Source of the DNA: Verrucomicrobiota bacterium
GTDB lineage: Bacteria > Verrucomicrobiota > Verrucomicrobiia > Opitutales > Opitutaceae
Direction of reading: 5' to 3'
DNA: 64,000 nucleotides
Assembly (NCBI GenBank): GCA_016235555.1
Contig: JACRKC010000100.1
Location: 1-64,000 of the forward strand
Notes under the pieces: generated by a model
The model's database searches: none
What the model was told of the DNA's origin: nothing
Seen by the model: only the letters and a program-made list of their open reading frames with translations
Translations under genes and position numbers: made by a program
Shown: in pieces, positions 1 through 58,556 of the stretch
How positions within the stretch are numbered: the first letter of the stretch is position 1
How the letters are laid out: every line of letters starts with the position of its first letter

Positions 1-138
1 GAGCGCACCCGTCTCGGGTGCTGGTGCCGGCGTCTCGCCGACACCTCCGAAATCCTCGGCGAGACGCCGAGGACGGCCCGCGGGACGCGGGCGCTCCCCG
101 AACCACCGCGTGTCACTCAATTGTGCGAGCCTCAGTAG
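1..138. repeat. Four-arm palindromic element, copy 1 (left part cut by window edge)
   Basis: This stretch folds as successive stem-loops (ACCCGTCTCGGGT, then arms around GGCGTCTCGCC and GGCGAGACGCC, then CCCGCGGGACGCGGG). An outer GAGCGC/GCGCTC stem encloses them, and a terminal segment ends in CCTCAGTA. The same sequence recurs at 25735-25919 and, inverted, at 58373-58556, where both ends are visible. The left terminus lies outside the window. No coding potential is claimed. Confidence 0.85.
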
Positions 139-8410: not shown

Positions 8411-8487
8411 GAGCCAAAGAGGGTCAAAGGAGCCAAAGAGAAAGAGCCAGAGGGGGTCAGGGCTTGACCTGTGACAACGGCGCTGTC
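8408..8487 (-). repeat. Head-and-tail element, locus B, overlapping the 3' end of the RAYT gene
   Basis: Read on the minus strand, the head TTGTCACAGGTCAAGCCCTG spans the last codons and the TGA of the RAYT gene. It is followed by three tail units (CTCTGGCTCTTT, CTCTTTGGCTCCTT, a TGACC spacer, CTCTTTGGCTCCTT). The layout (two units, TGACC, third unit) is identical to locus A, although the unit sequence differs. The tail leads into the toxin remnant. Confidence 0.85.
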
Positions 8488-9437
8488 GCGAGGCGCCAGC
8501 GCCGCACGAACTGGCTCACGCTGGCCGGTTGCCCCATGCCGAGTCGCGCGGCCAGCCAGCCGTTGGAGACGGCCGTGCCCGCTTTCATCGCCGCCGCCAG
8601 GCGCACCTTGGCCGGCGCGGACTTCCGGGCCGGCAGCGCGGCGAGGTCCACGCGGAGGCGCTTCGCCGTGGCCACCAGCTGCTCCTCCCATGCCTCTTCG
8701 CGCCACTGCCGGTGCGCGTCCGGCCCGCCACCGAGCAACGCGATCCGGCCGGCGAGGTCGGCCCCCGGCGCCAGTTTCCTTTGGAGGTCCGCCTTGAATT
8801 CCTTCGTCCCGACCGCCCAGCCGCGGCTCAACCGGCCGAACTTCTCGTCGCGGCGCCGCGCATCCTCCTCGGCCAGCACGCCGAGGTAATCGACGTAACG
8901 GCGCCAGCCGGCCCGCGTGTCCCGCAGCCCGCCGCACTCAGCGAGCACCGTGTCGGCCACCAGGCCGGCCGGGCGCTTGGGCTGCGACCACCACCACAGG
9001 CTGCTCCAGCGAAACTCCGCCACCCGCGCCGCCGGCACCACGCGCGCCCGCACCGGGTTGAGGTGGATGTAGTGCGCCACCTGCGCGAGGGCGTGACCCG
9101 GCTCGACGTGCAACGCCTTGTAGCGCCCTTGGAACGGCCGGCCCGTTTCGCCGCGGAACCGGTTGAACCGCCGCGCCCACGTCCCCTGCAGCCATTGCAT
9201 GCCGTCGCTCAGGTTCGGCGCCGGTGTCTCCAGCGCGAGGTGAAAGTGGTTGCGCATGATGACGAAGGCGTGGAGCCGCCACCCAAACCGCGCGCACGCC
9301 TCGAACAGGCAGGTCTCGAACGACTCCGCCGCGCCCTTCGGGGCGAACAGATCGCGCCGGTAGTTGCCGCGGTTGATGACGTGGTAACAGGCGTCGGGGA
9401 ACTCGAGCCGGAGCTTGCGGGGCATCGTCGCAGGCAA
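8457..9437 (-). CDS. REP-associated tyrosine transposase (RAYT, Y1 HUH family)
   Basis: 326 residues; an alternative ATG four codons in (MPRKLRLEF) is the commoner family start. The Y1 transposase core is clear: RLEFPDACYHVINRGNYR, the HUH motif HFH at residues 64-66 (MRNHFHLALETP), RFNRFRGETGRPFQGRYKA, and the catalytic Tyr region YIHLNPVRA (Tyr about 123). A C-terminal region of about 170 residues with a helix-turn-helix-like end (GWLAARLGMGQPASVSQFVR) follows, as in long RAYTs. RAYTs cut single-stranded DNA at hairpins next to short guide sequences and spread REP elements. This gene lies between two inverted copies of the head-and-tail element (8408-8487 and 9451-9553), heads facing it. 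Its last codons, ending LSQVKP, are encoded by the head of copy B. It looks intact and is the likely mobiliser of the element. Confidence 0.9.
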   Translation of the reverse strand: MPATMPRKLRLEFPDACYHVINRGNYRRDLFAPKGAAESFETCLFEACARFGWRLHAFVIMRNHFHLALETPAPNLSDGMQWLQGTWARRFNRFRGETGRPFQGRYKALHVEPGHALAQVAHYIHLNPVRARVVPAARVAEFRWSSLWWWSQPKRPAGLVADTVLAECGGLRDTRAGWRRYVDYLGVLAEEDARRRDEKFGRLSRGWAVGTKEFKADLQRKLAPGADLAGRIALLGGGPDAHRQWREEAWEEQLVATAKRLRVDLAALPARKSAPAKVRLAAAMKAGTAVSNGWLAARLGMGQPASVSQFVRRWRLATAPLSQVKP

Positions 9438-25734: not shown

Positions 25735-25919
25735 TTACAGAGTCTCGCGAAATAGGGTGACAAATAGCTCGGCGGTTCGGGGAACGCACCCGTCTCGGGT
25801 GCTGGTGCCGGCGTCTCGCCGACGCCTCCGAAGTCCTCGGCGAGACGCCGAGGACAGCCCGCGGGACGCGGGCGCTCCCCGGACCACTCCGTGTCACTCA
25901 ATTATGCGAACCTCAGTAA
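25735..25919. repeat. Four-arm palindromic element, copy 2 (complete, 185 bp)
   Basis: The ends are imperfect terminal inverted repeats. The left starts TTACAGAGTCTCGCGAAATA; the right, reverse-complemented, starts TTACTGAGGTTCGCATAATT. Both then reach GTGACA. Inside, an outer GGGGA.CGC/GCGCTCCCC stem encloses four stem-loops whose loops carry GTCTC or its complement GAGAC. There is no ORF, so it is MITE-like. It abuts a partial family II repeat on the right. Confidence 0.85.
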
Positions 25920-25985
25920 TACCAACAGCTGTTGAGCTTTGGATGGTCGTAGGTCGGGCTTTACGCCCGACACGTGTCCTTTTGG
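25919..25985. repeat. Truncated family II repeat
   Basis: TACCAACAGCTGTTGAG...TTTGGATGGTCGTAGGTCGG then GCTTTACGCCCGAC matches the reverse complement of the right half of the complete element at 29781-29899. It stops shortly after the first hairpin (CGACACGTGTCC), so only about half an element remains. The rest of the gap to 26058 shows a GCCGGC-rich palindrome and no gene. Confidence 0.65.
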
Positions 25986-29780: not shown

Positions 29781-29899
29781 ATACCAGCGAAACGTGAAGA
29801 TTGGATTATTGGGTCTTGTGGGTAGGTCGGGCTTTACGCCCGACGCGTCGGGGATAAACCCCGACCTACGATCATCCAAACATCAACAGCCGTTGGTAT
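29781..29899. repeat. Family II repeat, complete copy (119 bp)
   Basis: Starts ATACCAGCGAAACG and ends CAGCCGTTGGTAT, so ATACCA/TGGTAT form the termini. TTGGAT (left) and ATCCAA (right) form a second inner pair. The centre is GTAGGTCGGGCTTTACGCCC then GAC...GTCGGGGATAAACCCCGACC, bounded by GTAG/CTAC. No ORF. A half copy is at 25919-25985. The rest of 29900-30094 holds only short CGCACTCGACCC-type palindromes from 29980 to 30045 and no gene. Confidence 0.75.
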
Positions 29900-58372: not shown

Positions 58373-58556
58373 TTACCGAGGTTCGAATAAATGAGTGACG
58401 GCGGTGGTTCGGGGAGCGCCCGCGTCCCGCGGGCTGTCCTCGGCGTCCCGCCGAGGACTTCGAAGGTGTCGGCGAGACGCCGACACGAGCACCCGAGACG
58501 GGTGCGCTCCCCAAGCCGCCGGACTCTCTGTCACCCTATTTCGCGAGACACAGTAA
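58373..58556. repeat. Four-arm palindromic element, copy 3 (complete, inverted)
   Basis: The ends are TTACCGAGGTTCGAATAAAT (left) and, reverse-complemented from the right, TTACTGTGTCTCGCGAAATA, matching the terminal inverted repeats of copy 2. The interior shows the same four arms (GCCCGCGTCCCGCGGGC; GTCCTCGGCGTCCCGCCGAG then GAC; GTGTCGGCGAGACGCCGACA then C; ACCCGAGACGGGT) in opposite orientation. Compensatory changes preserve the stems. Confidence 0.85.

Follow-up and report, generated by a model that had tools for sequence, protein, structure and literature searches.

A probable composite repeat with an IS630-type MITE frame and a REPIN-like core in a bacterial genome

Our analyses suggest that a repeat of 178-179 bp, found in three copies in the 64,000-base stretch of DNA analysed here (the window), is a composite non-autonomous transposon in which an IS630-type MITE frame carries a REP doublet related to the RAYT ends of other genera, a reading to which we assign a probability of about 0.86. 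A single repeat would then carry the ends of two unrelated transposition systems. In this genome, an IS630 transposase acting in trans would move, or have moved, the frame as double-stranded DNA in a cut-and-paste manner, and the interior would consist of two inverted units, each made up of GGGGAGC and two triloop hairpins, that are related to RAYT-flanking ends. IS630 and RAYT proteins would have moved their respective parts; the frame may have gained the REP doublet by insertion, after which IS630 transposition may have amplified the composite in this lineage, and the present copies are probably largely neutral and tolerated downstream of genes. The parts are known, and their combination (an IS630-type MITE with a REP doublet) was not found described in the literature searched.

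Copies, boundaries and outer frame of the repeat

The window is the start of contig 66 (bases 1 to 64,000) in a genome assembly of 8.03 Mb and 140 contigs. The three copies that an initial annotation had placed at 1-138, 25735-25919 and 58373-58556 are all present, its ends including the target (YTA-element-TAR), and the truncation of the copy at 1-135 reflects the start of the contig and not biology. The element is flanked by TA and consists of 25-bp imperfect terminal inverted repeats (TIRs) and a 102-bp core, which is made up of one outer stem and four hairpins (Table 1).

Table 1. Positions of the repeat, its parts and the RAYT loci discussed in the text (window coordinates unless a locus is given).
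Feature	Position	Strand	Basis or remark
Complete MITE copy (179 bp)	25738..25916	+	homology between copies
Left TA, target duplication (YTA)	25736..25737	.	empty sites, copy comparison
Right TA, target duplication (TAR)	25917..25918	.	empty sites, copy comparison
Left terminal inverted repeat CAGAGTCTCGCGAAATAGGGTGACA	25738..25762	+	TIR pattern search
Right terminal inverted repeat, inverted and imperfect	25892..25916	-	TIR pattern search, copy comparison
Four-hairpin core (102 bp), REP doublet, REPIN-like	25779..25880	+	covariance model, covariation, RAYT flanks
Outer stem 5' side, GGGGAAC (consensus GGGGAGC; contains GGAG-type tail)	25779..25785	+	pairs with 25874-25880
Arm 1, 7 bp, triloop TCT (GTCTC)	25786..25802	+	
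Arm 2, 10 bp, mismatches in the 25738-25916 copy, triloop TCT	25804..25826	+	
Arm 3, 9 bp, triloop AGA (GAGAC)	25834..25854	+	
Arm 4, 7 bp, triloop GGA (GGGAC)	25857..25873	+	
Second complete MITE copy (178 bp)	58376..58553	-	TA at 58374-58375 and 58554-58555
Four-hairpin core of second copy	58411..58512	-	
Third MITE copy, 3' part only	1..135	+	TA at 136-137 follows
alaS-embedded RAYT loci (G158, G100, G146, G112, G002)	L372-L376, e.g., L373:79-3459		

A sequence search with the 185-bp repeat returned about 40 copies at E 1e-63 or better (4e-92 for the repeat itself), and a genome-wide search for the TIR pattern gave 47 + 56 = 103 matches, while the reversed control pattern matched nowhere (0 and 0). 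About 76 left ends were counted among the TIR matches listed, so that the genome holds at least about 76 copies; many are degenerate, and dozens lie in varied contexts. Many contigs of this assembly start or stop within a copy, and therefore the assembly broke on the element, which accounts for much of its fragmentation. The element is short, non-coding, present in high copy number and bounded by TIRs, as is characteristic of bacterial MITEs. Searches of phage and plasmid collections for the element, and of the named genomes for the exact left TIR, gave no match.

The boundaries of the element are sharply defined. The logo of 36 complete distinct copies reads Y-TA / C-T-G-A-G ... C-T-C-A-G / TA-R, where conservation is 1.5-2.2 bits at the TA and drops almost to background outside the flanking Y/R base, leaving a weak tail (0.3-0.5 bit at -4, -5 and +4) and a lone 0.55 bit at -9. 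Homology between copies ends exactly at the TA, and the exact flanking direct repeat is 2 bp (TA) in 26 of the 36 copies and longer in none. Several copies sit in the palindrome TTTGTCATCYA-W-TRGATGACAAA, for which empty sites are available: a search allowing up to three mismatches found 70 uninterrupted matches to TTTGTCATCYAWTRGATGACAAA in the genome, with a single TA (the sequences of five loci, L367-L371, were inspected). Filled sites split the palindrome at either of its two TA steps, as TTTGTCATC[TA]-element-[TA]ATAGATGACAAA at L033 and as ...CAT[TA]-element-[TA]GATGAC at L015. The element inserts at YTAR and duplicates the TA, as do IS630/Tc1-mariner elements. The palindrome TTTGTCATCYAWTRGATGACAAA is a favoured target of the MITE and is perhaps a small mobile repeat itself; it measures 23 bp, occurs in about 70 places of this genome (G000; e.g., L367-L371) and is often paired at a distance of ~56 bp.

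The TIR was also sought in 252 genomes of the family Opitutaceae, and two of these link it to IS630 transposases. In G080, it terminates an element whose ends recur unchanged in several contigs; the left end starts MKNKAKVYRPRRDFDGLQQRRQKAGRMF and the right end finishes DLTAVGRELRRGLKRITAHRTLPHSFLRHTGLLL, these being encoded transposase termini. For the C-terminal piece, weak alignments (E about 1) were obtained to plasmid transposases near their C-terminus, one of which is annotated as IS630. In G255, a longer remnant of a transposase C-terminus, with GNVKGRELANLY, adjoins GTCACTGAATTATACGAGACTCAAGTAA; its matches are to transposases of the IS630 family (best E 4e-7). The sharing of the TIR with an IS630-transposase element is seen in the G080 ends and the G255 remnant only, the G080 copies being broken by contig ends, and the search for an autonomous element with the same TIRs that the initial annotation had proposed has yielded these termini and no complete element. 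The assembly of this genome shows neither a match to the G080 termini nor an intact IS630 partner. Its sole DDE_3 match was rejected as a partner, as it is broken, unrelated and without matching TIRs, and the DDE_3 matches in G080, G096, G154 and G164 were rejected for the same want of matching TIRs; the short IS630 termini were missed by Pfam and recognised by tblastn. The window itself contains, as had been stated, no transposase with matching ends; an unrelated RAYT-like gene lies at 8457-9437. The classification of the repeat as a MITE is borne out, and on the strength of the TA duplication with empty sites and of the IS630 termini beside the TIR, we take the outer frame to be a MITE of IS630 (Tc1/mariner-like) type.

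The same TIRs also enclose contents of other kinds. At two places in G154, and in G164, they surround GTAGGTCGGGCTTTACGCCCGAC ... GTCGGGGATAAACCCCGACCTAC, one G154 copy having GTCGGTGATAAACC in place of GTCGGGGATAAACCCCGACCTAC, and in G096 they surround GGCGGACTTCAGTCCGCC ... GGCGGGCTGAAGCCCGCC; both contents are inverted REP-like doublets. The GTAGGTCGGGCTTTACGCCCGAC doublet stands alone in the window at 167-214 and 29822-29869, with a single unit at 25949 (25949-25971). It is a side observation that this GTAG-type REP and its partner adjoin two of the three MITE copies in the window. Our tentative suggestion, which we hold at somewhat less than even odds, is that IS630-type MITE frames in this family are vehicles that repeatedly capture and exchange REP doublets, a double-strand cut-and-paste system and a single-strand HUH system jointly spreading the same repeats. 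If this is true, one frame would have taken up three different cargoes (the GTAGGTCGGGC doublet, the GGCGGACTTCAGTCC doublet and the four-arm core), and the last of these would be a cargo common to several frames.

Gene calls made by a simple GC3-based choice place 27 copies with clear neighbours between co-directional (15), convergent (10) or divergent (2) genes; with both complete window copies added, convergent outnumber divergent placements 12 to 2 (p = 0.006). Such a setting is what tolerance of copies downstream of genes would give; it is no demonstration of a function.

The four-hairpin core and its relatives

The core reads GGGGAGC, followed by hairpins of 7, 10, 9 and 7 bp with the triloops TCY, TCY, RGA and RGA, and then GCTCCCC. 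The four-arm structure with GTCTC/GAGAC loops that was first noted is real, with predicted folding at z = -8.3 for one strand (RNA-fold) and z = -7.3 for the other (DNA-fold), and what were called loops are triloops (TCY and RGA), each with a closing G-C pair. Arms 1 and 2 bear GTCYC and arms 3 and 4 its complement, and the core is therefore a quasi-palindrome.

The initial annotation had read the differences between copies as selection on structure, a claim that is not supported within the genome, where almost none of the 40 pairs vary and where the one clear two-sided change, at pair 30/44 (TA 16, CG 12), is about as often broken (unpaired CA 11). Between genera, 95.9% of the cells pair and two-sided changes occur at 15 of the 40 pairs, amounting to 56 two-sided cells, where shuffling gave 13.4 and sliding the structure gave no more than 11. 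Relatedness is not taken into account by the shuffles, so the slid control and the number of genera weigh more. The triloops and the GGGGAGC tail are conserved while the stem sequence varies between genera. From these alignments, the structure of the core is strongly supported across genera. A function of this structure as RNA, which had also been suggested, found no evidence: Rfam gave no match above the gathering score, a near-match to RT-15 RNA (20 bits vs. gathering 82) was taken as chance among GC-rich hairpins, and wobble pairs are not preferred within this genome.

A covariance model built from 21 cores, with at most 16 scored per genome, found the core in 36 of the 252 genomes and in 18 of the 49 genera of the family. 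Together with the divergence of up to 18% among the copies in this genome, this disposes of the possibility, named at the outset as one that would tell against the element, that identical copies are confined to one strain. Most core-bearing genomes are without these TIRs, weak traces of which were seen in G146 and, on one side, at L169 (an Opitutia genome), and at 4 of 46 loci (L291, L293, L294, and L324) the core lies between quite different inverted repeats that score above the 99% null level, where about 0.5 would be expected. All of the cores examined in this genome lie within these TIRs or relics of them. From its distribution, the core is a module separate from the IS630 frame; this separate nature, as a REP doublet, was missed when the repeat was first annotated.

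The core shares with REPINs and BIMEs two inverted hairpin REP units and a short variable linker. Its tail is GGGGAGC (GGAG) in nearly all cases and GTAG in one relative (L175); as GGAG is neither GTAG nor GTGG, we call the core REPIN-like by architecture and not a canonical GTAG REPIN. Matches to the two-arm hairpin pattern in the named genomes come from many phyla among those listed and are mostly two-hairpin GTAG/GTGG REPs, which shows that loops of this type also occur outside the element. Among the matches listed are two-hairpin repeats (L106-L224) that share the GTCYC/GRGAC loops and have GTAG/GTGG tails; they come from Verrucomicrobia, Planctomycetes, Cyanobacteria, Hydrogenedentota, and others. 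In Cylindrospermum sp. NIES-4074 (L107:3500-4400), GAGAC-loop hairpins bearing GTAG tails flank a RAYT-like gene and also interrupt it.

The link between the core and RAYTs comes from L308 of G158, where core halves about 480 bp apart flank a gene with the HUH motif DHVH, which is a REP-associated tyrosine transposase by NCBIfam NF047646 (81.4 bits vs. cutoff 80) and matches Pfam Y1_Tnp (E 4e-7). This RAYT has four close relatives in the family (61-78% identity; G100, G146, G112, and G002), of which three are flanked by both core halves; the fourth (L376) shows the left half only, followed by low-complexity sequence at the assembly end. All five RAYT genomes are among the 36 core-bearing ones (hypergeometric 4.6e-5; the core halves beside the RAYT may contribute to this value, although every one of these genomes has at least 4 core matches). 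Core halves flank the RAYT in five genomes (in one of them only the left half is visible), and hence the core is a REP doublet (REPIN/BIME) by architecture. The cognate RAYT is absent from this genome, where the best match reaches 42%, and likewise from most core-bearing genomes; none of the RAYTs of this genome (10 PF01797 matches) is flanked by the core hairpins. The RAYT-like gene of the window (8457-9437, minus strand) scores 54.8 bits with NF047646, below the cutoff of 80, and has a different repeat, GACCCTCTCTGGCGC and its variants, on both of its sides.

A further observation concerns the position of these RAYTs. In five genomes of four genera, the RAYT and its hairpin flanks lie in frame, at one site, inside alaS, the gene for alanyl-tRNA synthetase, with the active-site motif DHVH intact; L376 is truncated, and only its downstream alaS part is clearly visible. 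At L373, the domain order is tRNA-synt_2c, Y1_Tnp, tRNA_SAD, and DHHA1, and the PDB alignment picks up again at GAVAFQLYDTYGFP. Between L374 and L373, the RAYT insert is 78% identical, vs. 82% and 68% for the alaS host parts; insert and host diverge in step, which means that the arrangement either is old or is passed on together with alaS. Within genera g7 and g54 it is nonetheless rare, and our literature search found no paper naming both RAYT and alaS.

Alternative explanations

The repeat could instead be a structured RNA, either a small RNA or a cis-acting mRNA element, that is kept for its RNA fold and for which mobility is secondary. The very stable predicted fold, the covariation across genera and the excess of convergent over divergent placement would accord with this, as copies between convergent genes can in many cases be transcribed from the upstream genes. 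However, Rfam holds no counterpart, the quasi-palindromic core privileges neither strand, CA mismatches at pairs are at least as frequent as GT within the genome, contrary to the wobble preference of an RNA, and there are dozens of copies in varied contexts, many of them degenerate; we consider this explanation improbable. Slightly less probable still is an IS630-type MITE and nothing more, in which the palindromic interior is simply what is left of ordinary internal sequence and is unrelated to REPs or RAYTs. The confinement of the cores examined here to these TIRs or their relics is what such a MITE would give, but it leaves unexplained that the core occurs in other genera without the TIRs and inside other inverted-repeat frames (L291, L324, L293, and L294), that core halves flank a RAYT in five genomes, and that the same TIRs enclose other REP doublets in three species. 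The converse proposal, in which a RAYT moves the core alone in this genome and the "TIRs" are merely conserved REP flanks, appears to us the least probable of all: RAYT genes are indeed present here and the core is free-standing in other genomes, but the copies in this genome have TIRs and stop at a TA that is duplicated (2 bp), the RAYTs here neither closely resemble the cognate one nor have core hairpins at their flanks, and a free-standing recent copy of the core was not seen in this genome. To our knowledge, REPINs leave no 2-bp TA duplication of this kind.

A different kind of alternative addresses only why the paired positions covary and can hold together with the composite transposon that we favour. 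The paired changes between genera may stem from hairpin-templated mutation (quasi-palindrome correction) or from repeated replacement of REPs and not from functional selection. The stems, as near-perfect palindromes with tiny loops, are substrates of such correction, and covariation within one genome is slight. The conservation of triloops and GGGGAGC amid varying stems, as if a hairpin-binding protein recognises them, speaks against it and is not decisive, and we regard this cause as a real but unlikely one.

Comparison with known repeats

MITEs, which depend on DDE transposases, and REPINs, which depend on RAYTs of the HUH type, are normally treated apart, and the composite described here would join them. 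It would also provide a natural series of frames and cargoes for asking how REP doublets disperse without a RAYT, a question left open by the REP literature. GTAG-tagged REPs, which include GTAG-20 of O. terrae with GTGG tails, resemble the present repeats in their short hairpins, many of them with 2-3-base loops, an adjoining tetranucleotide and frequent dimers; the same source also reports that degenerate REPs in Pseudomonas form double inverted repeats that are linked to unrelated stem-loops. In the text consulted, an IS630 TIR around REP dimers is not described and the four-arm unit is not named (PMC3733652).

The RUP of Streptococcus pneumoniae, a MITE of IS630-Spn1, and further TA-flanked MITEs, for example Correia/NEMIS, resemble our element in a length of ~100-200 bp, lack of a gene, TIRs, a TA target, high copy number, strong folds and insertion into other repeats, and RUP also shares its TIR with an IS630 element, as is the case here (PMC2229807). 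Unlike in these repeats, the autonomous partner is seen here only in other genera, and the interior is a four-hairpin REP doublet that also occurs alone and as RAYT flanks. With REPINs and BIMEs and their RAYTs, the core has in common two inverted REP units with a variable linker between them, compensatory changes, folding either as a long hairpin or as a "clover" and, in five other genomes, a place at the flanks of a RAYT gene (PMC3116915, PMC6006769). It differs from them in its tail (GGAG, not GTAG/GTGG), in its two hairpins per unit and, in this genome, in its spread inside an IS630 frame with TA duplication.
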